DNA of 19,853 nucleotides from Vulcanimicrobiota bacterium (lineage in GTDB: Bacteria > Vulcanimicrobiota > Vulcanimicrobiia > Vulcanimicrobiales > Vulcanimicrobiaceae): the NCBI GenBank assembly GCA_013289785.1, contig JABCZE010000004.1, positions 1 to 19,853 on the forward strand. The letters are read 5' to 3'. The position numbers were made by a program, and so were the translations under genes. Positions 1 through 19,122 of the stretch are shown piece by piece. Under the pieces are notes generated by a model. It did no database searches. It was given only the letters and a program-made list of their open reading frames with translations, and was not told the origin of the DNA. Each line of letters starts with the position of its first letter. Positions within the stretch are counted from its first letter, which is position 1.

Positions 1-1983
1 CCGCAAGCGGCGGTGCAAGCAATTGCGATCGAGTCGCGGCTCTCGATCCGCCGCGTTCGGCTGCGCGGCGGCTGGCAGCGGCGCGAGCACGGACCGATGC
101 TCGCCTTCCGCGGCCCGAATAACGAACCGGTGGCATTGCTTCCGCAGCGCGGTGGCCGTCACGCCAGATATGCCCTCGTCGACCCAAACCCGCCGATCGA
201 GCCGGTGCGGGTCGACGATGCCATTGCTGCTCAACTCGATACCCTGGCCTACGTCTTCCTTCGTCCGTTCCCGGAGCGTCCGATCGGCGTTTGGGACTTG
301 CTGCGCTTTGGATTGCGCCATAGCGGCATCGACGCCGGCCAGATCCTCGGGCTTGGGCTGCTCGGCGGCATTCTCGCCGGCATGATTCCGCTGGCGACGG
401 CAATCCTTTACGGCACGATCATCCCGGGGGCAATGCGACCGCAGCTGCTGACGATGGGCCTCGGGTTGCTCGCGATCGCGCTGACCGCTGCGGTGGCCGA
501 AGTCGTGCGCGGCCTAGCGATCGTGCGCCTTCAGGCACAAGTTGGTTCGACGCTGCAATCGGCGGTGATGGAACGGCTACTGGCGCTGCCGGCGTCGTTT
601 TTCCGGCGTTACGAAATCGGGGATCTGGCCAATCGCCTGATGGGCGTCGACGCGATCGAGCAGTACGTCAGCGACATCACGATCTCCGCGGCTCTCAGCG
701 GCGTCTTCTCGCTCGTGAGCTTCGCGCTGCTCTTCATCTACGACGTTGGGCTCGCATGGCTATGCGCCGGCTTGGCGCTGATCGCCATCGCGGTGGCGGT
801 GGTCGAAGCCTTCGTCACGCTTCCGCTGCGGCGGCAGATATTCGACCGTTCCGGCAGCATCGCGGGCTTCGTGCTGCAGGTCTTTAACGGCATCGGAAAA
901 CTGCGGATCGCGCGGGCCGAAACGCGTGCTTTCGTCGGCTGGCTTCACCGTTTCGTTACGATGCGCCGCATCTCGAACCGGGCGAGCACCATCGTCTACC
1001 GATTCGGCATCTTCGACTCGATCTGGCCGGCGGCAACGGGGCTTGCCATCATCGGCTACGTCTTCATCGTCCGCCAAGGCGCGTTTCCGGCGGCCATCTA
1101 TATCGCCGCGAGCGCCGCGTTCGGCCAGTTGCTGGCGGGGTTACTCGGGCTGGGCGATGCCTTCGTCCAGGTGATTCGGATCATTCCGCTGTACGAGCGC
1201 GCCCGGCCGCTGCTGCACGCGATGCCGGAGATTCTGGAAGCGCACGGCGACCCCGGCACGCTGTCCGGCGGGCTCGAGCTACGCAACCTGAGCTTCCGAT
1301 ACGAGAACGCGTCGGCGGCAACGCTCGACCGCCTCGATTTGAAGATCGAACCGGGCTCGTTCGTCGCCCTGGTCGGGCCTTCGGGATCGGGCAAATCCAC
1401 GCTGTTTCGGCTGCTGCTGGGCTTCGAGAAGCCAAGCCACGGCTCGGTGCTGTACGACGGGCACGACCTGGCATCGCTGGATCTCGCCGCGGTCCGCCGG
1501 CAGATTGGCTCGGTGCTTCAGTCGACAGGGGCGCTGCAAGCGTCGATTTTTGAGAACATCGCGGGCGCGCGATTCATCACGCACGACCAGGCGTGGGACG
1601 CCGCGCGGCGCGTCGGCATCGCCGACGACATCGCCAGTTTGCCGATGCAGCTCGAAACGTATTTAGGGTCGGACGGTGGTGGGCTTTCGACCGGGCAGCG
1701 TCAACGCATCGCCATCGCCCGGGCGATCGTTACGTCGCCGCGCATTCTGCTCTTCGACGAAGCGACGAGCGCGCTGGACAACGAAACGCAGGCAATCGTT
1801 ATGAAGACGCTGGAGAAATTGGATGCGACACGCATTGTTATAGCGCATCGACTTTCTACGATCCAGAATGCGGATCGGATTGTGGTGTTGGAGAGGGGCC
1901 GGATCCTGCAGGACGGGAACTATGCCGATCTAATCGCAACGCCCGGCCCCTTCGCTGATCTCGCGCAACGCCAGTCGATATAG
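1..1983 (+). CDS. NHLP-type bacteriocin/peptide export ABC transporter, permease/ATPase subunit (5' partial)
   Basis: Half-size ABC exporter of the NHLP (nitrile-hydratase-leader-peptide) bacteriocin export type, second-subunit class. It would act in the inner membrane and use ATP to export peptides carrying double-glycine leaders. The frame is open to base 1 with no convincing start: the GTG at 13 lacks a ribosome site and family members have a further N-terminal region, so the gene begins outside the window. Numbered from the codon at 13, residues 80-410 form the six-helix permease. The ATPase has Walker A GPSGSGKST (455-463), Q-loop Q503, signature LSTGQ (558-562), Walker B ILLFDE (578-583), D-loop SALD (586-589) and switch H612. 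No C39 peptidase domain is seen, which in this family belongs to the partner subunit. Two double-glycine peptide genes converge on its 3' end 24 bp away and are plausible cargo. The family call is confident; the cargo is inferred. Confidence 0.9.
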   Translation, partial: PQAAVQAIAIESRLSIRRVRLRGGWQRREHGPMLAFRGPNNEPVALLPQRGGRHARYALVDPNPPIEPVRVDDAIAAQLDTLAYVFLRPFPERPIGVWDLLRFGLRHSGIDAGQILGLGLLGGILAGMIPLATAILYGTIIPGAMRPQLLTMGLGLLAIALTAAVAEVVRGLAIVRLQAQVGSTLQSAVMERLLALPASFFRRYEIGDLANRLMGVDAIEQYVSDITISAALSGVFSLVSFALLFIYDVGLAWLCAGLALIAIAVAVVEAFVTLPLRRQIFDRSGSIAGFVLQVFNGIGKLRIARAETRAFVGWLHRFVTMRRISNRASTIVYRFGIFDSIWPAATGLAIIGYVFIVRQGAFPAAIYIAASAAFGQLLAGLLGLGDAFVQVIRIIPLYERARPLLHAMPEILEAHGDPGTLSGGLELRNLSFRYENASAATLDRLDLKIEPGSFVALVGPSGSGKSTLFRLLLGFEKPSHGSVLYDGHDLASLDLAAVRRQIGSVLQSTGALQASIFENIAGARFITHDQAWDAARRVGIADDIASLPMQLETYLGSDGGGLSTGQRQRIAIARAIVTSPRILLFDEATSALDNETQAIVMKTLEKLDATRIVIAHRLSTIQNADRIVVLERGRILQDGNYADLIATPGPFADLAQRQSI

Positions 1984-2007
1984 ACTGAGCGCTGCTTCGA
2001 TTCGGCT

Positions 2008-2172
2008 CTAGCCGACCGGGTTGGTCTTGCCCTTGATCGGGGCGCCTGGGATGATCGGATGGGTCGGGGGGCCGCCTGGCCGAATCGGGTCGATCGGAAC
2101 CGGATGGGTGCCGATGCCGCCGCTTACCTTATCAAGTTCTTCGTCCTGGATCGGTTTGTTTTGGTCGCTCAT
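2008..2172 (-). CDS. Proline-rich double-glycine-leader peptide A (54 aa), putative exported peptide
   Basis: Short gene read directly from the minus strand: ATG at 2172, TAG at 2008-2010, ribosome site AAAGGG five bases upstream. The first 19 residues, MSDQNKPIQDEELDKVSGG, are a typical double-glycine leader: acidic, with E-L-D-x-V-S-G-G just before the expected C39-peptidase cut. The 35-residue core starts IGTHPVPIDPIRPGGPPTHP and ends TNPVG. It has ten prolines, two histidines and no cysteine, which excludes lanthionine or disulfide bridges. A paralogue lies 203 bp upstream at 2376-2543 with the same leader and core pattern, and an NHLP-type exporter gene ends 24 bp away. I infer secretion with leader removal. 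Whether it is a bacteriocin, signal or modified peptide cannot be told, and no modifying enzyme is in view. The conservation between the two copies argues strongly that both are real genes. Confidence 0.85.
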   Translation of the reverse strand: MSDQNKPIQDEELDKVSGGIGTHPVPIDPIRPGGPPTHPIIPGAPIKGKTNPVG

Positions 2173-2177
2173 AGTTT

Positions 2178-2206
2178 CCCTTTCTTTTACGCGGCAAAAG
2201 AACCGC
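2178..2206 (-). promoter_or_regulatory. Conserved 5' leader hairpin and ribosome site of peptide A
   Basis: Read on the minus strand, GCGG and CCGC (2206-2203 and 2194-2191) can pair around a T-rich loop, followed by a purine-rich stretch and the AAAGGG ribosome site (2183-2178). Nearly the same block precedes peptide B at 2552-2579, although the more distal upstream DNA differs. Conservation outside the coding region suggests an RNA element or binding site controlling both genes; the mechanism is unknown. Confidence 0.55.
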
Positions 2207-2246
2207 GCATATGAAAGTATTTCTCGGCAGTTCGAGCGACTCCTAG

Positions 2247-2256
2247 GGGTTAACCC
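2247..2256. promoter_or_regulatory. Palindrome GGGTTAACCC upstream of peptide A, possible operator
   Basis: A perfect 10-bp palindrome lies about 75 bp upstream of the peptide A start codon. A related string, CCTAAGGGGTTAAC, occurs in the divergent intergenic region near 9768-9781. Placement between the upstream terminator and the coding start would suit a regulator site, but with two occurrences this is only suggestive. Confidence 0.25.
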
Positions 2257-2303
2257 TGGTTATTTGTCCGAATTTCTTTCGGTTTGGAGAAGGATGGGCC
2301 TGC

Positions 2304-2333
2304 AAAAGGGGTCGGAGCACCGCCCGGCCCCTT
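2304..2333 (-). terminator. Rho-independent terminator after peptide B
   Basis: On the minus strand a 10-bp stem (arms AAGGGGCCGG and CCGACCCCTT, one G-T wobble) encloses an 8-base loop and runs into a four-T tract. It starts 43 bp after the peptide B stop codon and before peptide A. The two peptide genes are therefore probably separate transcription units, each with its own promoter. Confidence 0.7.
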
Positions 2334-2375
2334 GCAGAACTTCGCCGCGCCATGTAAAAGGCGCCGCAGGATGAC

Positions 2376-2543
2376 CTAATTCCCGACGGGATTGCTGGGA
2401 ATGCGAATCGGGTTTTGCGCTCCACCGCCCGGATGGGTCGGAGGCGTGCCCGGACGAATCGGGTCGAATGGCATCGGATGCGTGCCGACGCCGCCGCTGA
2501 TTTGGTCCAGCTCGTCGTCCTGCATTTGCTTGTCGTCGCTCAT
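2376..2543 (-). CDS. Proline-rich double-glycine-leader peptide B (55 aa), putative exported peptide
   Basis: Paralogue of the peptide at 2008-2172. ATG at 2543, TAG at 2376-2378, ribosome site AAAGGG eight bases upstream. The leader MSDDKQMQDDELDQISGG (18 residues) ends in the double glycine expected for C39-type processing. The 37-residue core begins VGTHPMPFDPIRPGTPPTHP and ends SNPVGN, with ten prolines and no cysteine. Identities to peptide A are concentrated in GTHP, DPIRPG, PPTHP and NPVG, while the stretch between the second THP and NPVG differs. Such conserved and variable segments are the pattern expected of selected peptides. The gene lies 86 bp downstream of typA on the same strand and is followed by its own terminator. 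I know no named family matching this core; export by the neighbouring NHLP-type ABC transporter is an inference. Confidence 0.85.
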   Translation of the reverse strand: MSDDKQMQDDELDQISGGVGTHPMPFDPIRPGTPPTHPGGGAQNPIRIPSNPVGN

Positions 2544-2551
2544 GGTGGTTG

Positions 2552-2579
2552 CCCTTTCTCGCGCGGCAAAAAGAACCGC
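2552..2579 (-). promoter_or_regulatory. Conserved 5' leader hairpin and ribosome site of peptide B
   Basis: Second copy of the block at 2178-2206. GCGG (2579-2576) and CCGC (2566-2563) flank a T-rich loop, followed by GAGAAAGGG. It differs from the peptide A copy by one T in the loop and a few bases before AGAAAGGG. Confidence 0.55.
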
Positions 2580-2629
2580 AGCTATCTTCCTGTTCGGATT
2601 CGGGCGGACGCTTCCTGGGGGCTGATTGA

Positions 2630-4453
2630 CTAGGGAACCGTCTCCCGCTTCCGCAGGCGCAAGCGAGCGGTTTCATTGAGGAGGCGTTTCCGCAACCGAA
2701 TGGATTCCGGCGTGACCTCGACCAGCTCGTCGTCCTCGATGAACTCGATCGCCCGCTCCAATGAGAGCGTTTCGGGCGGAGCCAGTTTAACGTTATCGTC
2801 CGAACCCGCCGCGCGCATGTTGGTCATCTTCTTTTCGCGGGCGACGTTGAGCGCGATGTCCTTGTCGTCGTTGGCGCGGCCGACGATCATCCCCTCATAC
2901 ACGTCGACGCCGGGTCCGACGAAGAAGCGGCCCCGCTGGTCGACCCCGGCCAGCGCGTAGCCCGTCGTTCGTCCCGTTTCGCTGGCAACCAAGGCGCCGA
3001 CGTTCCGCTCGGGAAGCTCACCCTGCCACGGCTGATGGTCGTAATAGGTATGCGAAAGCACCGCGGTGCCACGCGTTAGCGTGAGCAGTTCGCCGCGCAG
3101 CCCGAAGATGGCGCGAGTCGGCATCGTGTACTCCAACCGTTGGCCGTCCCCGACCGGCAGCATGTTCGACATCATCGCTTTGCGGCGCCCGAGCGCTTCG
3201 ATCACCGCGCCGGCATAGATTTCAGGGACGTCGACGACGACGTACTCGACCGGTTCCCAGCGCTCGCCGTCGCGCTCCGTTACGATGACTTGCGGCTTTG
3301 AAACCGCTAGTTCGTAGCCTTCGCGCCGCATCGTTTCGATGAGGATCGCCAAGTGCAGCTCGCCGCGGCCGCGGACCTCGAACGTGTCGGCGGAACCAGT
3401 TTCGGTAACCCGCAGCGCCACGTTCGATTCGAGTTCGCGCATCAGCCGGTCGCGTATCTGGCGCGACGTCAAATACCGTCCCTCTCGGCCGGCGAACGGC
3501 GAGTTGTTGACGCTAAAAAACATCGAGACCGTCGGCTCGTCAACGGCGACGGCGTGAATGCTCTCGGGCATGGCGGCGTCGGCGAGCGTGTCGCCGATGT
3601 TCAAGTCGTCGATCCCGGAGATGCAGACGATGTCGCCCGCGCTGGCCTGCTCGACGTCGATACGTTCGAGGCCGGCAAACGTCAGTAGGGTCGTAAGCCG
3701 CAGGCCGCCGGTCACGACGCCGTCGCGCGCGATCTTCACGATCGGGTCGTTTCGCCGGGAGGTCCCGCGGAAGATACGTCCGATTCCGACGCGCCCGACG
3801 TAGGGGTTGTGATCGATCGCCGAGATCAGCAGTTGAAACGGACCTTCTTCCGAAGGCGCTTCGGGAACTTTCGCGACGATCGTTTCGAAGAGCGGCTCGA
3901 GGTTCTCGCTTTGGTCCTCCAACGATCGCTTCGCGATTCCAGCTTTTGCGTTGGTGAACAGAACCGGAAAATCGGCTTGTTTGTCGTTGGCGCCGAGGTC
4001 GACGAAGAGGTCGAAGGTTTGATTGACGACTTCTTGCGCGCGGGCATCTCTGCGGTCGATCTTGTTCACCACGACGATCGCGCGTAGGTCGAGCTCGAGC
4101 GCTTTGCGCAGAACGAAGCGGGTTTGGGGCATGACGCCTTCGGCGGCGTCGACGAGCAGCAACACGCCTTGAACCATTTGCAACACACGCTCGACCTCGC
4201 CACCGAAATCGGAATGGCCGGGAGTGTCGACGATGTTGAATTTAACGTCGCCGTGGCGGACGGCGGTATTCTTTGCCAGAATCGTGATGCCGCGTTCCCG
4301 TTCTAAGGGATTGGAATCGAGCACTCGCGTCGCGACGTGCTGGCCCTCTCGAAAGACCCCGCTCTGCTTGAGCATAGCGTCGACCAACGTCGTTTTGCCA
4401 TGGTCGACGTGTGCGATGATCGCGACGTTGCGGATGTCCGAGCGAGTCTTCAT
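2630..4453 (-). CDS. typA: Translational GTPase TypA/BipA
   Basis: Ribosome-associated GTPase of the EF-G/LepA superfamily, involved in 50S subunit maturation and stress or cold adaptation. The 607 aa length is normal for the family. The G-domain has G1 AHVDHGKTT (14-22), switch I ERERGIT (51-57), G3 DTPGH (76-80) and G4 NKID (120-123). Domains II, III and V and the TypA-specific C-terminal domain follow, rich in conserved Arg and Lys and ending in a basic tail. The ATG at 4453 places the G1 motif at the usual distance from the N-terminus, so it is the likely start although its ribosome site is weak. It is divergent from the 97 aa gene at 4592. The two peptide genes lie immediately downstream on the same strand, with no clear terminator after typA, so some read-through into peptide B is possible. 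Confidence 0.97.
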
Positions 4454-4591
4454 AGGCGGTCAGGGCCAAGCGTAGCGCGAACCGGTGGTACCTGGCAACC
4501 ATAGATACGGCACCCGCAACCGCGCCGGCGCGCCGGGAGAGGCGAGCGGAAGCTCGAAGTCCGAGGCCAACCACTGAAATAGGAGGTCGAG

Positions 4592-4885
4592 GTGAACGCA
4601 GACAAGGCGGCACGGATCGCGGAGCTACTACATCAAGTTGGCGAAATTCACCACATGGTTTTCTCCGACACCGACGGCAACGACGACGACTGGGCGACCT
4701 TTTACTCCGACTGGCTTCTCGCTCACTCCGATTTTCCGCGGCTGCTCGCGCGGCGCCCAGTCCGCAGCCACCTGACGCGCGACTTGGTCGAGCTCGACGA
4801 ACAATACACCAGCGCGTCCCCGTCGCAACCCTGGCCGGCCTGGTACGCCGACCGTCTCATAACGAAGTACGGTTTCGCGAGCTAA
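4592..4885 (+). CDS. Small conserved hypothetical protein (97 aa)
   Basis: Starts with GTG preceded by a perfect AGGAGG (4581-4586) five bases away, which supports both the gene and the start. The protein is soluble, acidic and rich in aromatics, with the segment DGNDDDWATFYSDWLLAHSD near residues 28-47 and PWPAWYADRLITKYGF at the C-terminus. It resembles short uncharacterised proteins in several environmental phyla that share the DDDW...YxDWL and PWPxxYAxRL patterns. I recall no function for them. There is no signal peptide and no membrane segment. It is divergent from typA across 138 bp, and its stop codon overlaps the stop of the convergent GloVer gene by a few bases. Confidence 0.8.
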   Translation: MNADKAARIAELLHQVGEIHHMVFSDTDGNDDDWATFYSDWLLAHSDFPRLLARRPVRSHLTRDLVELDEQYTSASPSQPWPAWYADRLITKYGFAS

Positions 4886-6156
4886 CGCGTGACCTCGAAG
4901 ACGACGCCGTAACCGTTCTTTCCACCGTCGCTCGTCGCTCCATAGAGTTTTCCCGACGCGTCTAGGGTGAGCGAGCCGGTGGGGTATTGGCCATCGGTGC
5001 CGCCGGTGAACGAGTATAAGATTCGTTCCTTCCACTGTCCGCCGTGGGTTGGGCTGAGCTCGTAGACGATTCCGGCGTTGTTTGCCCCGCCGAAGACGGT
5101 GGTTCCAAACAAGTTGCCGGACTTATCGGCAATGAGTCCTCCGTACGGCGCGTTACCGTCGCCGGTCGCGCCAAATGCGTGCAGCACGGTTTCCTTCCAC
5201 GCGTGCGCCTTGCCGCGAACGAGCTCGTAGGCCACGCCTCCGTCGTCCGGCCCGCTCTCGATCGCCGTTCCGTAGAACGTGCCCTTCGCCGTCATGACGA
5301 GGCCCGCATACGGATTCTCGCCGCCGCCGTTATTGGTGAAGGTATAAAGGACGCGATCTTTCCACGCCGGCTTCTTTTGCAGCTCGTAGGCGACGCCGTC
5401 GTTGTCCCCGTCGTATTTATAGGTAGTGCCGTAGAGGTTGCCGGCACGGTCGGCGATCACGCCGGCGGCCGGCGCGCTGCCGTCGGTCGTTCCTGCGAAG
5501 CTGTACAACACGTGTTCCGTCCAGCCGCTACTGCCCGGCGTGAGCGAGAAAACGGTGCCGTTGCCGCTGCTTCCACCGTACCACGTCGTGCTATAGAGCG
5601 TGCCGCTCTTGCTGCGCAGCAACACCGCGTTGGGAAACTCTCCGTCGCTTTGGATGAAGCTATGCAGGACGCTCTCGGTCCAGCCGCTGCTCTTGCTCAA
5701 CTCGTACACTAGGCCGCAGCCGATCGAACATTGCGTGCTGCCGCCGGTGCTCGCCGTGCCGAAGGCGTTCCCATTCTTGTCGAGGATCACGCCGGCATTG
5801 GGAAAACCGCCGTCGCTACCGTCGTCAAATGTGTAGAGCGGTGTCTCGCTCCAGCCGCCGCTCTTGTTCGGCGACAGCTCGAACACCACGCCGCAACCGC
5901 CGCCGACGCTGCCGCCGCATGAATCGTTTCCGCCAAAGTGCGTCGTTCCGAACGCATTGCCCGACGAATCAAAAACGAGGCCACCGTTCGGTCCCCCGCC
6001 GTCGGTTCCGTCGGTAAACGAGTAGAGCACGGTTTCGGTGGCGCGAGCGCCTGCCGCGTTTTCCGCCGCGCGCGGAGGTGATGGGGACGTGCCGTTCCCG
6101 GCGCAGCCGGCGATTAGCGCGGCGACGACACCGGCGAGCGCGATGCGTTGAACCAT
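4882..6156 (-). CDS. GloVer tandem-repeat lipoprotein, seven repeats
   Basis: Surface or periplasmic lipoprotein built of the tandem repeat known as GloVer, whose units have the form VLYSF..G.DG..P..G...D..GN.YGTT..GG...G.VYEL. Seven units of about 50-60 residues fill residues 35-424, consistent with a seven-bladed propeller. I chose the ATG at 6156 because it gives a compact lipoprotein signal, MVQRIALAGVVAALIAGC, with the lipidated cysteine at 18; the longer frame to 6216 would overlap the previous gene and bury the signal. It starts 17 bases after the stop of the upstream propeller gene, so the two are probably cotranscribed. No catalytic motif is visible; a scaffold, adhesion or sugar-binding role would be a guess. 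The paralogue at 15565-16908 has the same seven-unit plan. Confidence 0.9.
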   Translation of the reverse strand: MVQRIALAGVVAALIAGCAGNGTSPSPPRAAENAAGARATETVLYSFTDGTDGGGPNGGLVFDSSGNAFGTTHFGGNDSCGGSVGGGCGVVFELSPNKSGGWSETPLYTFDDGSDGGFPNAGVILDKNGNAFGTASTGGSTQCSIGCGLVYELSKSSGWTESVLHSFIQSDGEFPNAVLLRSKSGTLYSTTWYGGSSGNGTVFSLTPGSSGWTEHVLYSFAGTTDGSAPAAGVIADRAGNLYGTTYKYDGDNDGVAYELQKKPAWKDRVLYTFTNNGGGENPYAGLVMTAKGTFYGTAIESGPDDGGVAYELVRGKAHAWKETVLHAFGATGDGNAPYGGLIADKSGNLFGTTVFGGANNAGIVYELSPTHGGQWKERILYSFTGGTDGQYPTGSLTLDASGKLYGATSDGGKNGYGVVFEVTR

Positions 6157-6173
6157 CGAAACCGTATGCTTAA

Positions 6174-7331
6174 CTACAACGATGGCGGCACGCATCTGGT
6201 CCCAACGGTTTGACACGTAGCTGCCCCGACGGGTTTGGTGCCGGCCGCAAACGGTGACCCGGAAACCGTCGTGAGCGCGCCGTTGCTTCCGATGCTAAAG
6301 GCGGAAACATTGTTCGTGCCGACGTTGGCCACGTAGGCAAACTTGCCCTCGGAATCGATTCCCACGGGGCCTTGCGGCTTGGTACCCGTTCCGAATGGCG
6401 AGCCCGTCACCGGCGTCAGCCCGCCGGTGCTCCCACTGAGCGAATAGACGGAAACGTCGTGCGAGCCAATGTTGGGGACGAAGACGAAACGGTCATTGGG
6501 ATCGACTGCCGCGCCGGTGGGGTTAGTGCCTGCTCCAAACGGCGAACCCGCGACCGGTGTCAGCTTGCCGCTGACTGCGTTGATCTTATAGGCGGAGACT
6601 TCGGCGGAGCCGTCGTCAGCGACATAAGCGAACGAACCCGAAGGATCGACAACGGCCAGGACCGGATCGGTTCCCGCGGCAAACGGCGATCCGGTAATCA
6701 AAGACAGCGCGCCGGTGCTCTTGATTTTATACGCATACACGCCACCGCCGCTTCGGCAGGCCACGTAGGCAAACGTTGCCCTCGGGTCGATCCCTACCCC
6801 GACGGGGTCACTGCCGGTCTTAAATGGTGACGACGCCAACTCCGTCAGCTTGCCGGTGGATGGGTTGATCGCAAAGCCGGTTAGTATAGAGGAATCATAG
6901 TTCGACACGTACGCGAACTTGCCGCTGGCGGTGATTCCCATGCCGTTGGGATCCTGGCCCGCCGAAAACGGCGACCCCGCTACCGCGGTCAGCGCGCCGG
7001 TACTCGCGTCAATGGAGTAGCCGGAGACGTTACCGGAGCCAAAGTTAGTCACGTAAAGAAACTTGCCACTCGGAGCGATGACGGGGCGAGCCGGCTCCGT
7101 ACCGGCTGCAAACGGGGATCCAACCACGGCCGCGAGCGCGCCGTCGCTCTGGATTTGAAACGCGGAAATATCGCCGGAACCAGAGTTCGCCACATAGACG
7201 TACTCGACGGGGCTAGTTAACCGGCTTTGCGGCTGTAGCGGCTGCGAGCCGGGAGCTTCGCTCGAGCACGCCGCAAAAACAGCAATCCCCAGCGCCGACA
7301 ATGTGTGGGTAACGAAATGTTTCTGCTGCAT
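6174..7331 (-). CDS. Seven-bladed beta-propeller lipoprotein, YncE/lactonase-like
   Basis: Secreted propeller of the lactonase/YncE superfamily. Seven units of about 50 residues have the consensus FAYVxNxGSxxVSAYxI...TGxLTxVxGSPFxAGTxPxGxxxDPxGK. I chose the ATG at 7331 (385 aa) because the longer frame to 7520 only adds an implausible leader, while this start gives MQQKHFVTHTLSALGIAVFAAC with lipidated Cys22 and an AGG a few bases upstream. The C-terminus after the last blade contains two cysteines (TCQTVGTRC) that could close a disulfide. The family includes 6-phosphogluconolactonase and non-enzymatic surface propellers. The highly regular repeats and lipoprotein signal favour the non-enzymatic kind. 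It is followed 17 bp later by the GloVer gene and lies 228 bp downstream of the amine oxidase. Confidence 0.88.
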   Translation of the reverse strand: MQQKHFVTHTLSALGIAVFAACSSEAPGSQPLQPQSRLTSPVEYVYVANSGSGDISAFQIQSDGALAAVVGSPFAAGTEPARPVIAPSGKFLYVTNFGSGNVSGYSIDASTGALTAVAGSPFSAGQDPNGMGITASGKFAYVSNYDSSILTGFAINPSTGKLTELASSPFKTGSDPVGVGIDPRATFAYVACRSGGGVYAYKIKSTGALSLITGSPFAAGTDPVLAVVDPSGSFAYVADDGSAEVSAYKINAVSGKLTPVAGSPFGAGTNPTGAAVDPNDRFVFVPNIGSHDVSVYSLSGSTGGLTPVTGSPFGTGTKPQGPVGIDSEGKFAYVANVGTNNVSAFSIGSNGALTTVSGSPFAAGTKPVGAATCQTVGTRCVPPSL

Positions 7332-7559
7332 GAGAAACCTGTCGCATTTGAGTCCGCGAAGATTTCGATAAAGCGAGCCTAACAATCTCGTATCGAGCAT
7401 GCCGCGGACCCAGAAACGTGCTCGATTCCGAGCGATCGGGATCTGTGCAATTGGCGATGAATCGGAGCCCCCCTTCAATGTGCGCCGGCAGTTCACTATG
7501 CTTCTTTGTACTGCAGCCAAGAGAGCGAAACGGGCGCGAACGATCGGCTAACTCATCGC

Positions 7560-9038
7560 TCACCCGCGCGCGATTTCGCGTGCTGCGCGTTCGCCCGAGA
7601 TGACCGCGCCGTTGATGTATCCCATATCGTTATACGATGTCTGCTCCCCGGCAAAGAACACGTTCCCCTCCGGCACGGGTTCGACGCCGGCAAAACGGGT
7701 GTATTGCCCCACACGATAGTACGAATACGCGCCGTGGTGCCACGGGTCACGTTTCCAGTCGTCGAGGTACGCGACGCCCGTATAGAGCTTTGCCAAGCCG
7801 GGATAGAGACGGTCGAGCTGTCGGACGTACTCGTCTGCGATAGGCTTCGGTGCCGGGCCGTGCGCCGCGCCGGGCAGCACGCCGTGCCGGCCCCCGGGGA
7901 ATCCGACGAGGATGCCGTATTCGCCCGGCTGTGCCGCCGAGACGTCCCACGACTCCTGATAAGCAAACTGCACGTATGAAGAGCCGTCGTAGTCTTCCTT
8001 GTTCCACAGTCGGCGCTTGAACTGCATGTGAAGTTTCGCGTTCGTGCCGAGGTCGAGGTTTTCGATGGCGATTCGCTTGAGCGCTGAGAAACCGGCGTGG
8101 CTCAGGTCCACGTTGCGCAGCGTGGTGAACGGGATCGCAAGGCAAAGGCGCTCGGCGACGACGTCGTAGGTTCGGCTGCCCGAAGCAAACGTGCAGCTCA
8201 CCGATCCGTCAGAGCGCGCGCGCAGTGCAACAAGCGCGGTATCGAGCTCGATCGTCCCGTCGGGGAGCGTCGCCGCCATTCTTGCGGCGAGTTGATCGTT
8301 GCCGCCGACGATGTGAAGTGCCTCATCAGTGCCGTCGACGTTTAGCCGATGCGGCCGCTCGAAGCCCAGAAGATAGATAAGGTTCAGCGCGCTCTGTATC
8401 TCGGGATCTCCTCCGTATTCGCCGATGCAAGCGTTGGCGAGCAGCGCGCCGATTTTCGACCGGCGGCCGTCGGGCACGTTCGTTTCAATCCACTCGGCAA
8501 CGCTCGTACGGTCGAGCGCACGCCCCGCTGGCGTCGAGTGGTTGTACTTCGTTGGGTAACCGGCAGCGTGAAGTGCAGCCTGAAGAGGTTTGCGCACGTA
8601 CGCGAGGTAGTCGTCGCGCGCCTCTGCGACCGTGTACCGTTCGCTGTCGAAGAAGTAGATGTCGTGCCCGGGCTCCTGGCGGTTGACGTTAACGAGCTGC
8701 AGTCCGAGCTTGCGGGCGAGGCGCTGTACTTCCACCTGCCCGATGGAGATGAACTCGCCGCCGTGTTCGGCGATCTGACCCTCGGCGAAGTAGTTGCGCA
8801 GAGTCCACGTGCGCCCGCCGATGCGATCGTTTGCCTCAAAGATGCGGCTGGCAATGCCCGCTTGCCGTAAACGATAGGCGCACGTTAGACCCGCGACGCC
8901 GGCCCCGATGATGATGACGCGCCCGTCGCGAACCGGCGGAATCGCCGAAGCGGACATTCCGGCGAACGTGGAAACCCGCGCGCATCCTGCGAGAGCGCCT
9001 GCGGCACCGGCGACAAATGCGGCTCGCGTGCTGCCCAT
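7560..9038 (-). CDS. Flavin monoamine oxidase family protein, probably exported
   Basis: FAD-dependent amine oxidase that oxidatively deaminates amines or amino acids, giving aldehyde or keto acid, ammonia and peroxide. Numbered from this ATG, the N-terminal dinucleotide fold has GAGVAG near 45-50 with the family motif RIGGRTW near 72-78. The C-terminus has the FAD-binding segment VFFAGEQTS followed by GYINGAVISGERAA. The region matching the covalent-FAD cysteine of mammalian MAO reads GAYSYYRVG, so FAD is probably non-covalent. The N-terminus, STRAAFVAGAAGALAGC, looks like a Tat or lipoprotein signal but lacks the second arginine of a Tat motif. A GTG start at 9092 (510 aa) is an alternative that would overlap the upstream gene by 11 bases. 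Neither start has a strong ribosome site. The substrate cannot be read from the sequence. Confidence 0.9.
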   Translation of the reverse strand: MGSTRAAFVAGAAGALAGCARVSTFAGMSASAIPPVRDGRVIIIGAGVAGLTCAYRLRQAGIASRIFEANDRIGGRTWTLRNYFAEGQIAEHGGEFISIGQVEVQRLARKLGLQLVNVNRQEPGHDIYFFDSERYTVAEARDDYLAYVRKPLQAALHAAGYPTKYNHSTPAGRALDRTSVAEWIETNVPDGRRSKIGALLANACIGEYGGDPEIQSALNLIYLLGFERPHRLNVDGTDEALHIVGGNDQLAARMAATLPDGTIELDTALVALRARSDGSVSCTFASGSRTYDVVAERLCLAIPFTTLRNVDLSHAGFSALKRIAIENLDLGTNAKLHMQFKRRLWNKEDYDGSSYVQFAYQESWDVSAAQPGEYGILVGFPGGRHGVLPGAAHGPAPKPIADEYVRQLDRLYPGLAKLYTGVAYLDDWKRDPWHHGAYSYYRVGQYTRFAGVEPVPEGNVFFAGEQTSYNDMGYINGAVISGERAAREIARG

Positions 9039-9081
9039 CCCGGATCTAAGTCCGCGTTCGTTCCCGGTTAGCCGGTCGAGC

Positions 9082-9603
9082 TTAGGCGCCACCGCAGTCG
9101 TGCTCGCTATTCATCCCCGCGAACTGTGCGTGTTGACGATAGTCGTAAACGCGAAACACCCGCCCTCTGCCGTCTTTGTCCGGATCGCAGTATGCTGTCG
9201 GCGCCGGCCTCGAGATGAAACAAACCTGTACCTTATCACCCGGATGCTCCCGCATCATAATGTCGTTCCCGGGGGTATTTTGGTAATGAGTTACGGCGCT
9301 TCGCATGTTCCGATTAGCGGGATCTGATCCTAAGGTGGTATTGAACTCTACGAAAACGCCGCTCTCTTGGAAATCCTGAGCCGTGAAAGTCTTTTGAGAG
9401 TCCCCTGTTAGCCGAGGTTCGACGGATCTGACGGTTGTGTCTACGCACGACACGGAGCGATAGTGCCATACTCCTGGAACATACCGTTCGTCTTGCGCCA
9501 TGGCAATGGGCCCGTTTATCGTTGCCATGGAGAGCATCGTAGCAGCGAGCGCTAGAGTTGCGATCCTCGTGCGGGTGGTATTGGTGACCCACGGCTTGGC
9601 CAT
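9082..9603 (-). CDS. Secreted hypothetical protein with four cysteines
   Basis: 173 aa protein of unknown function. It has a Sec signal peptide with hydrophobic core IATLALAATMLSMATI and probable cleavage after AMA at 36. The mature part carries four cysteines (SVSCVDT, VQVCFIS, TAYCDPD, EHDCGGA) that could form two disulfides, and is otherwise polar. The ATG at 9603 has GGGAGGG nine bases upstream, a good ribosome site. A TTGACT box (9657-9662) lies about 60 bp upstream on the same strand, though its -10 partner is poor. It is the first gene of the leftward block and its stop lies 43 bp before the amine oxidase ATG, so the two are probably cotranscribed. I recognise no family. Confidence 0.78.
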   Translation of the reverse strand: MAKPWVTNTTRTRIATLALAATMLSMATINGPIAMAQDERYVPGVWHYRSVSCVDTTVRSVEPRLTGDSQKTFTAQDFQESGVFVEFNTTLGSDPANRNMRSAVTHYQNTPGNDIMMREHPGDKVQVCFISRPAPTAYCDPDKDGRGRVFRVYDYRQHAQFAGMNSEHDCGGA

Positions 9604-15564: not shown

Positions 15565-16908
15565 TCAAAATCCCGATAGGGAGAAAACGGTGCCACATCC
15601 ACTAGAGCAGGATCCCGAACCACCGTTATAGGTGGTGCCATAGAGCACGCCGTTCAGGTAAAGAAGCGTCGTTATCGGTGTCGCGCCGTCCGAGCCGCCC
15701 TCGAAGCTGTAGAGCATCGTTTCTTTGCCGGACGTCGTGACGCGGAAGACCACTCCGCAACCGGCCGTACCGGTGGTTCCAGTGCATGCGGTGCTCTTGC
15801 CGCCTTGTTGTGTGGTACCGTAGAGCGTTCCCTTGACGTTGGTCAGCTTTCCGAACGGACTTGCGCCATCGTTCGGAGGACCCTGGAAACTGTGAATGCC
15901 GTGGAACTTTCCGGACGTGCTTATGTCGAAGAGGGTCCCGCATCCGCCGTCACATCCTTTGCCGCCGCCCCCGCCTGCCATCCCGTACAGCGCGCCGTTC
16001 ACGTCGATCAAGCCCCCGTCCGGGAATGCACCGTCCGATCCGCCGGTAAAGCTGTATAGCACCTGCTCCTTCCCGGACGTGCTCACGCTGAAGATCGTTC
16101 CGCACCCTGCGGGGCCGCCGCTGCTGTTGGTGCAGGCCGAGCCGCCACCGCCGCCGCCTATTTCAGTCGTGCCGTAAAGCTTGCCATTGCTGTAAAACAA
16201 GCTCCCTGTTGGGAAGTCGCCGTCCTGGCCCCCCGCGAAGCTGTGGAGCACGGTTTCTTTTCCGGATGGGGTCACGCTAAAGACGGTGCCGCATCCCGCC
16301 CCGCTGGTGCCGCACGTGCCGGTGCCGCCGTCGAGCGTCGTGCCGTAGAAGGTGTCATCAGACTGTACGTAGATCACTCCACCGTAGGGGTCGATGCCAT
16401 CATATCCGCCTTTGACCGCGGCACCAAAACTATGCAGCACGGTTTCCTTCCCGGAAGTTGTGATCTTGAAGAACGTGCCGAAGCTGTTCTTGCCGCCACC
16501 CTGCGTCGTGCCGAAAAGAGCGCCGCTTTTCTCGACGACGCCCCCTTTCGCGTACTGGCCGTCCGGAGTACCTGTGAAGCTGTAGAGCGCGCTTTCGGCT
16601 CCTGACGTGCTCATCTTAAAGACGGTCCCGCAACCGTCACCGCTTTGGCATCCCGAATCGCCGCCTCGCTCGGTAGAGCTATAGAATGCGCCGTTCGCTG
16701 CGATTAGCGCCTCATTCAACGGGTGAGCGCCGTCCGAGCCGCCAGCGAAGCTGTAGAGCACCTTTTCCGTAACGCCGTCCGGCGCTGTGAGCGAGCGGCT
16801 TACCGATGAAGGCATAGAGGAAGAGAGACCGTTGTTGCCTCCGCCGCAGGCGGTTAGGATCCCCGCTGCAAGAAATGCGGCGACAAGAGTGCTTGTTGAA
16901 ATGCGCAT
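15565..16908 (-). CDS. GloVer tandem-repeat lipoprotein, seven repeats (second copy)
   Basis: 447 aa lipoprotein: MRISTSTLVAAFLAAGILTAC with lipidated Cys21, then seven GloVer units from about residue 47 to the end. The form is KETVLYSFxGGxDG..P.G.L....G.LYGTTxxGG....CGTVFxxSTSG. Several units carry paired cysteines in the connector between GTTxxGG and CGTVF (for example the last unit, GGSGSCSSGCGTVF), so each blade may be stapled by a disulfide; cysteines are far more frequent here than in the copy at 4882. The ATG at 16908 has AGAGTAGG upstream and a good promoter 50-80 bp away. The frame ends in TGA exactly at the end of the seventh unit. Function unknown; cell-surface location inferred. 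Confidence 0.9.
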   Translation of the reverse strand: MRISTSTLVAAFLAAGILTACGGGNNGLSSSMPSSVSRSLTAPDGVTEKVLYSFAGGSDGAHPLNEALIAANGAFYSSTERGGDSGCQSGDGCGTVFKMSTSGAESALYSFTGTPDGQYAKGGVVEKSGALFGTTQGGGKNSFGTFFKITTSGKETVLHSFGAAVKGGYDGIDPYGGVIYVQSDDTFYGTTLDGGTGTCGTSGAGCGTVFSVTPSGKETVLHSFAGGQDGDFPTGSLFYSNGKLYGTTEIGGGGGGSACTNSSGGPAGCGTIFSVSTSGKEQVLYSFTGGSDGAFPDGGLIDVNGALYGMAGGGGGKGCDGGCGTLFDISTSGKFHGIHSFQGPPNDGASPFGKLTNVKGTLYGTTQQGGKSTACTGTTGTAGCGVVFRVTTSGKETMLYSFEGGSDGATPITTLLYLNGVLYGTTYNGGSGSCSSGCGTVFSLSGF

Positions 16909-17002: not shown

Positions 17003-17971
17003 CTAATGAATCGCAACGCCGGCCGGATCCGACAGGCCGTTTTTCGAGCCAAGCGTCGTGTACGATGAACCCGACGGATACTTGTCGACGAATACCTCGG
17101 CCTTCACGACGTCCGCAACGAACAAGAGCTTGTTCATTTTGTTCAATCCGACGTGGAACGGTTCGCTGAAGCCCGTGATCGATGAGCTAACCGACGAGTA
17201 GGGTGGTTTGATGATGTCGACCACCCCGGCAGTTTGGTCGCAGGCGACCACGTCGCTCTCCTTGTCGAGGACCATCCCGCCCGCGTAGCCCAGGGTGACT
17301 CCCAAGACCGTTCCGGCGCAGTGCCCGAGGCCGCCCTTGTACTCGACGATGTTCGCCCCGCCACTGGAATTGTTGTATGACGCGAAAACGTCGCCGTGCT
17401 TGTCAACCGCAACGCCGACCACGGAACCGCCAGGTTCGCACTGGTCCTTGATCTTGTTGCTATTCTGAGCGTACTCTGTAACTGTTCCAGAGCCTGCGCC
17501 GTCGTCATAGTCGGCGACCAGTACGTCACCCTTCGTGTCGGCCGACACGTCGACTGGGTCGATCAACCCGGCCGAGTACGTGAAGCTCGGCGACGTGCCA
17601 TTGGGCGCGTACTCCGCAACGTCGATGGCGGCATAGTCCGCGACGTAGAAGTTACCTTTCCCGTCGTACCAATCCCCATCGGGGCGAATCAGGCCTTTCG
17701 AGATAGTGCCCGTTGCCTTACCGGTTTTGCTTAAAATTTCAACCGCGCCCGTCCCGAAGTCGGAAACGGCCAGCTTCTTGAGCCCGAGCTGGATGGCGTC
17801 GGGGTGCAGGTTGAGTCGGGTCATGGGCTGTCTGTACTGCGTTTGCAGCGCGACCCCGCTCGCATTCTGAACGTTCGTTGAAGGCGTGCTCCGCATGTCG
17901 GCGTCGCTGCAACCGCCTAAGAGTGCGGCCAATGTGACGGCCGCGATGAGTTTAAACACCCCGGCGCTCAA
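17003..17971 (-). CDS. NHL-like propeller lipoprotein (322 aa)
   Basis: Lipoprotein with signal SAGVFKLIAAVTLAALLGGC (modified Cys21 counting from the TTG start), a variable linker, then propeller-like repeats such as LAVSDFGTGAVEILSKTG, GNFYVADYAAIDVAEYAPNG, GDVLVADYDDGAGSGTVTEY and GDVFASYNNSSGGANIVEY. The open frame begins with TTG at 17971, whose bases overlap the TGA of the preceding gene (TTGA), a usual form of translational coupling. A GTG at 17959 would give an even more compact signal, MFKLIAAVTLAALLGGC, and is a fair alternative. Three cysteines in the mature part could pair. It belongs to the same broad class as the protein at 10610-11524. No catalytic motif seen. Confidence 0.85.
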   Translation of the reverse strand: MSAGVFKLIAAVTLAALLGGCSDADMRSTPSTNVQNASGVALQTQYRQPMTRLNLHPDAIQLGLKKLAVSDFGTGAVEILSKTGKATGTISKGLIRPDGDWYDGKGNFYVADYAAIDVAEYAPNGTSPSFTYSAGLIDPVDVSADTKGDVLVADYDDGAGSGTVTEYAQNSNKIKDQCEPGGSVVGVAVDKHGDVFASYNNSSGGANIVEYKGGLGHCAGTVLGVTLGYAGGMVLDKESDVVACDQTAGVVDIIKPPYSSVSSSITGFSEPFHVGLNKMNKLLFVADVVKAEVFVDKYPSGSSYTTLGSKNGLSDPAGVAIH

Positions 17972-19026
17972 TGTGAAACGATCGGGATGGTCATCGTATG
18001 CTGTTTCGACACGGTATGGGATCTCCGATGGTGAGGCGTATACGAGGGCACGAGGCTGATCTGAGTTGAATAATTCAACCCCGGGAAAGAGCCGGAAAGT
18101 GTCTGTTGGTTGCCGTTGTTGTCGTAGGCAGTTATCGTGGAGCCGCTACGCCCTCCGCCCGAGTTAACTACATAGATTAACCCGTTGTTCGGATCGTACG
18201 CGATGCCAGAGGGAAAATTGATTCCCGACCAGGAGCCGGAGAGCGTCTGTGGATTGCCGTTCTCGTCGAACGCCAGAATGGATGAATAATATGATACCTG
18301 CGCCACATAGATAAAGCCATTGCTCGGGTTGTACATGATTGCGTCCGGTCCGTGCGTAAGTCCCGGGAAAGAGCCCGAGAGCGTCTGCAGGGTTCCGTAC
18401 TGATCGTATACGGTGACGGGCGCTTGGCCGCAGCAACCATAATTTGTATTGTAGAGGAATCCATTATTCGGATCGTATGCGATGTCGTTCGTTTGGTACG
18501 CCCCGAAAAACGAGCCCGAGAGCGTTTGCTCGTTACCGCTCTCATCGTATACCGTAATGCCGCCGTAGTTGCCGTTTCCAAGTTGGTAGTTGGTGACGTA
18601 GAGGAGGGAGTTGCTCGGATCGTACGCGATTCCGTACGGATCGCCGAGGTTCGGGAACGCCCCCTGCTGGAGCGTCTGTTGGTTTCCGCTCGTATCATAC
18701 GCGTTAATAACTTCGCTGTTGTTGCCCATACCCACGTAAAGGAGCTGATTACTGGGGTCGTACGTGAGGCTACTTGGGTAGTACAATCCGGGGAACGATC
18801 CGGAAAGCGTCTGTTGGTTCCCCTGCTCGTCATATACCGTGATCGTCGCGTTCCCGCCGTTTGCCACGTACAGCAACTGTGGGCCGTAGGAACCATGTTT
18901 CACGTGCTTAGCGTGCCTGGCCGGTATTACACCGCTCGAGGTTGGCACGCTACCGCCGCAGCCCGCGAATACGGCGACGACTGCGCAAGCGCCTAAAACG
19001 TAGCTAGCCTGTTTCGAAAATCGCAT
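17968..19026 (-). CDS. Six-repeat propeller lipoprotein with YDxxGNxQTLSGSF units
   Basis: 352 aa from the ATG at 19026; a TTG at 19047 is the frame's first start but places seven extra residues before a good signal. The signal is MRFSKQASYVLGACAVVAVF followed by AGC, with lipidated Cys23. After a His/Lys-rich linker (ARHAKHVKHGSYG), six units of 43-49 residues follow with consensus LLYVxNxxxxxITVYDExGNxQTLSGSFPGLxxPxxIAYDPxNG, predicting a six-bladed propeller. The C-terminal tail is again His-rich (PHHRRSHTVSKQH). The glutamine- and serine-rich QTLSGSF turn is unusual among the propellers here. The stop overlaps the start of the next gene, so the two are coupled and their products probably act together. 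Function unknown. Confidence 0.85.
   Translation of the reverse strand: MRFSKQASYVLGACAVVAVFAGCGGSVPTSSGVIPARHAKHVKHGSYGPQLLYVANGGNATITVYDEQGNQQTLSGSFPGLYYPSSLTYDPSNQLLYVGMGNNSEVINAYDTSGNQQTLQQGAFPNLGDPYGIAYDPSNSLLYVTNYQLGNGNYGGITVYDESGNEQTLSGSFFGAYQTNDIAYDPNNGFLYNTNYGCCGQAPVTVYDQYGTLQTLSGSFPGLTHGPDAIMYNPSNGFIYVAQVSYYSSILAFDENGNPQTLSGSWSGINFPSGIAYDPNNGLIYVVNSGGGRSGSTITAYDNNGNQQTLSGSFPGLNYSTQISLVPSYTPHHRRSHTVSKQHTMTIPIVSH
18046..18876 (-). repeat. Six tandem coding repeats (about 130-147 bp each)
   Basis: Imperfect DNA repeats encoding the six propeller units of the lipoprotein gene. The best conserved stretch codes for GNxQTLSGSF and the following YDPxNG. Such repeats allow copy-number change by recombination, although the copies have diverged at third positions and in the variable loops. 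Confidence 0.75.
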
Positions 19027-19122
19027 TTGCTTTAACCCGCCTCTCAAGTCGGACTGCCTATTGCAGCTTCCGCGCAGAGCTTCTCTCTACCGAGTTGCGC
19101 CTCAGGCGGCTTGCTTTCAAGC

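Follow-up and report, generated by a model that had tools for sequence, protein, structure and literature searches.

Proline-rich double-glycine-leader peptides beside an NHLP-type exporter subunit in Vulcanimicrobiota: a peptide family with shared leaders and probable exchange of core halves

The window analysed here, a 19,853-nucleotide stretch of a Vulcanimicrobiota genome (contig JABCZE010000004.1), carries two small peptide genes on the reverse strand. Peptide gene 1 (2008..2172, -) encodes 54 amino acids, with a leader of residues 1-19 (2116-2172), a core (2011-2115) and a stop codon (2008-2010). Peptide gene 2 (2376..2543, -) encodes 55 amino acids, with a leader of residues 1-18 (2490-2543), a core (2379-2489) and a stop codon (2376-2378). 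In the window sequence, both genes have an ATG start, a purine-rich ribosome site of the GAAAGGG type and a stop codon. The leaders end in EELDKVSGG (peptide 1) and DELDQISGG (peptide 2). Counted on the translations, there are ten prolines in each core and cysteine is absent; the two cores have in common the pattern GTHPxPxDPIRPGxPPTHP together with NPVG.

The peptide genes are convergent with a gene for the ABC2 subunit (permease/ATPase) of an NHLP exporter (13..1983, +), which scores 767.7 bits for TIGR03797 (cut-off 709.4). The 5' end of this gene is lost at the contig edge; a longer homologue is present in a sister genome (G016). The upstream neighbour is a gene for the translational GTPase TypA/BipA (2630..4453, -; TIGR01394), which has the same place in the sister genome and is probably outside the peptide system. 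Farther along, the window encodes repeat or beta-propeller proteins that match GloVer repeats (4882-6216) or Lactonase/NHL (6174-7520 and 17968-19047). The product of 15565-16908 resembles that of 4882-6216 by eye and has no Pfam match.

Homologues identify both reading frames as real genes, because the genome of the window holds six intact copies and one frame-broken copy, and 136 database proteins match the family. This bears out the initial annotation, which had described two paralogous, proline-rich, cysteine-free peptide genes with double-glycine leaders. Its remark that they are too short for usual gene callers was wrong: many relatives are already annotated, some of them as “bacteriocin” or “bacteriocin-like protein.” Chance reading frames are ruled out by the homologues and by selection on them. 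A reading frame on the opposite strand (2021-2374) is unsupported, as conservation tracks the frame of the reverse strand.

The genome of the window is an assembly of 2.0 Mb in 361 contigs, 66% complete. A search of this assembly at E ≤ 10 returned six matches over four contigs, with E values from 6.4e-34 to 2.1e-5, and a profile search added a tandem seventh copy (L025, G000:C153, ~1421-1569). The frame of this last copy is broken, by either assembly error or pseudogene decay. Four of the six intact copies lie on contigs of 4-5 kb without a recognised exporter, where they adjoin genes that we take, from our own reading of the neighbours, to resemble trxB and selA. When peptide 1 was searched by tblastn against 72,556 plasmid and 50,697 phage records, there was no match at E ≤ 0.01, and a plasmid or phage origin of the peptides was rejected on this ground.

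The peptide family is large. A first profile, built from 12 copies, matches 136 proteins at E ≤ 0.01, and the 120 of these that were listed were used for residue counts. All taxonomically named entries among these 120 belong to Candidatus Cybelea or Candidatus Eremiobacteraeota (Eremiobacterota); many entries are nameless, and the host range may be wider than Eremiobacterota. The same profile matches 3 of 148 genomes (E ≤ 0.01), all within the genus of the window, which comprises 18 genomes including its own. A 36-row profile extends this to 6 of 99 genomes of the host family, although in three of these, which belong to other genera, the matches are weak (best E values of 8.8e-5, 0.0012, and 0.006) and driven mainly by the leader. 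The initial annotation had called the peptides an undescribed kind. Members were already in databases, so that this holds only in the sense that we found no study of the family in the open-licence literature, a scope mostly without subscription papers and preprints.

Family cores are short, hydrophilic and rich in proline. The 120 listed cores have a median of 36 residues, of which 27.9% are proline and 4.1% serine; cysteine occurs in a single core. These cores contain 272 occurrences of the motif [ST][HN]P, where shuffled cores average 13, and neighbouring occurrences are 13-15 residues apart in 144 of 164 cases. The core is therefore an irregular internal repeat. Structure prediction gives a short helix in the leader (residues 10-16) and no confident fold for the rest, with a mean pLDDT of 61.5. 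From 19 divergent members we built a second profile, which matches 183 proteins; 70 of the 120 listed are new. The leaders of these further proteins are much alike, and their cores are rich in proline, histidine or glycine; at the level of sequence, one leader type carries very different cores. Among other arrangements, one protein (P0153) has two successive GG sites and apparently two cores in tandem. Cores with LNPQPLPP or LNPQPIPP motifs follow GG leaders in two peptides (L031, G004:C78, 1459-1593; L048, 719-868), and LNPQPLPP repeats are found in the cores of P0081 and L048.

The histidine content of the cores raises the question of whether these are secreted metal-binding peptides. Histidine makes up 5.9% of residues in the 120 proline-rich cores and 9.2% in the 70 further cores, and some related cores are His-rich repeats. 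Other proline-rich cores have one histidine (P0075) or none at all (P0083), and we regard metal binding as a very unlikely function.

Peptide genes of this family are under purifying selection. With the Nei-Gojobori method, where site counts are small, whole-gene dN/dS is below 1 in every comparison. For peptide 1 and its ortholog in the sister genome it is 0.36, with an unchanged leader and 0.42 in the core, and for peptide 2 and its ortholog it is 0.12 (leader 0.04, core 0.17). A third ortholog pair, that of copy C176, gives 0.54 (core 0.39), and the two window peptides compared with each other give 0.19. The C176 leader has five non-synonymous and no synonymous changes; therefore, the leader is not the more constrained part in this pair.

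The leaders fit the published recognition pattern of C39 peptidases, as far as sequence can tell, at the GG site and at positions -4, -7, and -8. The cited description of this pattern (PMC6363468, in excerpt) gives GG, hydrophobic residues at -4 and -7, glutamate at -8, and a hydrophobic residue at -12. Both window leaders have valine or isoleucine at -4, leucine at -7, and glutamate at -8, with isoleucine (peptide 1) or methionine (peptide 2) at -12. Among the 120 listed proteins, the leader ends in GG in 117 and in AG in 3, so that homologues with a conserved double-glycine leader are abundant. Position -4 is valine or isoleucine in 118, -7 is leucine in 99, and -8 is glutamate in 95. Position -12 is isoleucine, valine, methionine, leucine or phenylalanine in 79 of 120 and lysine in 25 of 120.

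Leaders of this kind are also found on class II bacteriocins, and the exported cores might kill competitors. Peptide 2 scores 15.8 bits against TIGR01847 (bacteriocin_sig; cut-off 15.7), while peptide 1 is not among its matches at E ≤ 1. At the same threshold, TIGR01847 matches 10 of 36 family members and TIGR03949 touches 14 of 36. Some database entries of the family carry the name, and many diversified copies would suit warfare. Against this, the hydrophilic cores (median GRAVY -0.78) argue against membrane-active bacteriocins. In the 120 listed cores, the longest hydrophobic run is at most 4 residues, and at most 2 in 113, unlike the hydrophobic stretches of class II bacteriocin cores. Net charge is low, and the cores are without predicted structure, at low confidence. 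No immunity gene was recognised beside the copies; for the dispersed ones, flanking genes were assessed by eye. An immunity protein may be short and of no known family. The “bacteriocin-like” character proposed in the initial annotation thus lacks support beyond the leader, and we consider a killing function unlikely.

Peptides of this family occur together with a C39-type exporter. At the corresponding place of the sister genome (PMTY01000049.1; G016:C174) are TypA, two peptide genes and ABC2 (TIGR03797, 786.6 bits), followed by ABC1. This ABC1 matches TIGR03796 at 956.2 bits (cut-off 853.3) and includes a Peptidase_C39 domain (PF03412). The operon also encodes a short HlyD-like protein, which at 139.5 bits is below the TIGR03794 cut-off of 156.2, as well as an RND-type adaptor and an OEP-family channel. 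No ABC1 above the cut-off was found in the window's own 66% complete assembly. Several other genes share the sister contig (L040). A further divergent GG-leader peptide lies upstream of the exporter operon (7319-7495), beside a gene for an adenylate-cyclase/NB-ARC/TPR protein (4442-7258) that is ~1.8 kb from the channel gene. A prolyl-oligopeptidase-family (S9) enzyme (2084-4309) is encoded on this same contig as the proline-rich peptides.

ABC1 is rare among the 99 genomes of the host family, where 10 candidates were scored per genome: eight have it at E ≤ 1e-150, six of them over the cut-off. At E ≤ 1e-150 it is present in 5 of the 6 peptide genomes versus 3 of the 93 others (Fisher p = 4.6e-6, not corrected for relatedness). 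When the cut-off is applied instead, these figures are 4 of 6 versus 2 of 93. The sixth peptide genome, without ABC1, is that of the window itself, where ABC2 is present and the assembly incomplete. Short GG peptides also turn up close to exporters in further genera. Per contig with an exporter, there are two in G060 and two in G155, one each in G054 and G032, and three in G016. A 16.7-kb stretch read around the G021 exporter showed no recognisable GG peptide, two script-listed GG-like reading frames having been dismissed by eye; the exporter contig of G004 is only 4.1 kb long. Export by a C39-type ABC system, as first proposed for these leaders, is supported by this co-occurrence and by the adjoining ABC2 subunit. 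Predicted export of the window peptides is therefore well supported.

NHLP exporters often serve modified peptides (RiPPs), according to the cited part of PMC2887384, and a tailoring enzyme for the window peptides might be encoded elsewhere. One family relative, G031, has a Cys-containing GG peptide next to a gene for a LanM-like lanthionine synthetase (DUF4135 + LANC_like; L096, G031:C49, 10009-13216), both near a TIGR03796-like exporter on the same contig. In G155, a methyltransferase gene sits between peptides and exporter. A flavin-containing amine oxidoreductase, encoded both in the window (7560-9092) and on the sister contig (L041, G016:C174, 16048-17526), may be the one tailoring candidate, though it is at least 5 kb from the peptides. 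On the other side, the near absence of cysteine and the low serine content of the cores leave few residues of those kinds, and a scan of 23 proteins encoded around the exporters of G016 and G060 turned up no known tailoring enzyme. It is because of this last result that the products are likely unmodified, and we find modification by a distant enzyme quite unlikely.

The peptides might instead be signals that the producing cell or its neighbours sense. Exporters of this type carry quorum-signalling peptides in Gram-positive bacteria, as the excerpted source has it (PMC6363468), and the adenylate-cyclase/NB-ARC/TPR protein near the sister operon's channel gene could be read in the same direction. 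Yet there are many divergent cores per genome, and family matches of neighbouring genes revealed no linked receptor in the window or beside the copies. A signalling role, which the initial annotation had also raised, is likewise unlikely.

A conserved hairpin likely precedes the peptide genes in the 5'UTR. For gene 1, hairpin, ribosome site and start span 2167..2216 (-), with an E value of 1.8e-9 to covariance model R1 and a fold z of -2.13 against shuffles. For gene 2 they span 2538..2589 (-), with an R1 E value of 3.5e-9; both are training sequences of R1, and the covariation involves both. Folded singly, the gene 2 hairpin is no better than shuffles, as is the case for 3 of 10 copies. In a simple hairpin scan, 14 of 15 copies have a hairpin immediately before the ribosome site, compared with 9 of 38 ordinary genes. 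Among five GG peptides outside the set that defined the hairpin, three have one, a weak figure. In the 15 aligned upstream pieces, 92.2% of 90 cells are paired, and 8 cells are doubly changed versus 2.1 (sd 1.3) in shuffles, for a structure that was picked by eye on the same 15 sequences. Sliding the stem partner makes the pairing collapse.

In the window's own genome, R1 recovers 7 of 7 copies, all of them training data, before the next match at E = 1.2 (with 150 of the 768 candidates from a first look scored). A broader use of the hairpin, outside the peptides, was rejected, as R1 has no match below E = 1.2 in this genome other than the seven peptide copies. Across 99 genomes, with 60 candidates scored per genome, R1 has 19 matches at E ≤ 0.01, of which 15 are training sequences. 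The other four are not before GG-peptide genes, so R1 has false matches.

Core 1 is a mosaic. An alignment of peptide gene 1, the ortholog G016a and the dispersed paralogue C190a gave 123 informative sites. Upstream of positions +92 to +169, 74 of 79 sites side with the ortholog, and downstream 20 of 21 do so. Between them, 23 of 23 consecutive informative sites side with the paralogue, a statistic reached in 0 of 10,000 permutations. The tract corresponds to 2003..2080 (-), in coordinates derived from alignment offsets; it covers the second half of core 1 and the stop codon and ends shortly beyond it. It contains an exact 72-nt match between gene 1 and C190a at 2009-2080. This tract is best read as gene conversion with C190a, in either direction.

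The paralogue itself is probably a duplicate of the exporter-side locus, because behind it lies a degenerate antisense remnant of the exporter ABC2 gene, from its 3' end (L023, G000:C190, 2869-2978; tblastn E 2.4e-7; blastn 77% over 109 positions). In the wider family, the 120 listed proteins include three different N-terminal halves that precede one and the same C-terminal half, IIPGAPIKGKTNPVG.

We propose that these genes encode secreted, probably unmodified peptides that are cut after the double glycine and exported by an NHLP-type system, with shuffled cores and a communal role of a surface or matrix type. We consider this reading probable as a whole. The leader of ~19 residues would be recognised by the C39 peptidase subunit of the exporter and cleaved after Gly-Gly. 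The exporter would consist of ABC1, ABC2 and a HlyD-like adaptor, with an outer-membrane channel, and the core of ~35 proline-rich residues would leave the cell. The four intact copies on other contigs would use the same exporter in trans. Several genes, most of them dispersed, would probably be co-expressed as a cocktail, because the copies have the leader and the 5'UTR hairpin in common. Through duplication and gene conversion, copies would trade C-terminal core halves. Once secreted, the peptides would most likely act as communal surface or matrix components like EbfG1-4, rather than as killers. This extracellular role, drawn by analogy, is the least certain part of the explanation.

More tentatively, the family could be a combinatorial repertoire of unmodified peptides. 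Leader and hairpin would serve as an address label, the cores would be hypervariable and swapped by conversion with no tailoring, and the RNA hairpin would provide co-control. We hold this to be possible, at somewhat less than even likelihood. If true, it would amount to a diversification system for exported peptides without tailoring chemistry. The family equips an uncultured soil bacterial group with a defined and testable collection of predicted exported peptides, and pairs an NHLP-type exporter with short leaders and apparently unmodified cores. It also offers a probable example of recombination exchanging the cargo of secreted peptides while the export signal stays. Databases that call such proteins “bacteriocin” may be relying solely on the leader.

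Exporter and leader type are known, while the peptide family, the hairpin and the conversion of core halves appear to be new. The exporter is that of the NHLP/NHLM system (TIGR03794, TIGR03796, TIGR03797; Haft et al. 2010, PMC2887384), with ABC2 above the cut-off in the window and ABC1 above it in the sister genome. The consulted part of that paper describes GG precursors with hypervariable cores in paralogous sets, and the window family resembles these in all three respects. Unlike the NHLP/N11P precursors of the same account, with nitrile-hydratase-like or Nif11-like leaders of ~70-87 amino acids, the window leaders have 18-19 amino acids. Correspondingly, TIGR03793 and TIGR03798 have no match at E ≤ 1 in either window peptide or in 36 family members. 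The family also differs in its cores, nearly all without cysteine, and in that no known tailoring enzyme was recognised beside the exporter.

With the bacteriocin leader families TIGR01847 and TIGR03949, the window family shares the motif around the GG site. The match is confined to the leader, and the window-family cores are hydrophilic and proline-rich. Proteins with a bacteriocin-type signal domain in Treponema denticola, as far as the cited passages go (PMC11879956), are secreted, showed no detected bactericidal activity and, in several cases, are encoded near a bacteriocin-type ABC transporter gene. They differ from the window family in coming from another phylum and in being tandem lipoprotein genes, and those passages mention no proline-rich cores. 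The best analogy, though not membership, is with EbfG1-4 of Synechococcus elongatus, which the excerpted source describes as small GG peptides serving biofilm formation from one transcript (PMC4997328). Their efficient secretion needs a C39 exporter, and mature EbfG1, at the start detected for it, is rich in proline (PMC4997328, same excerpt). The genes of the window family, in contrast to that single transcript, are mostly dispersed. Both systems combine several small GG peptides with a C39 exporter, and the likeness drawn here is one of description.
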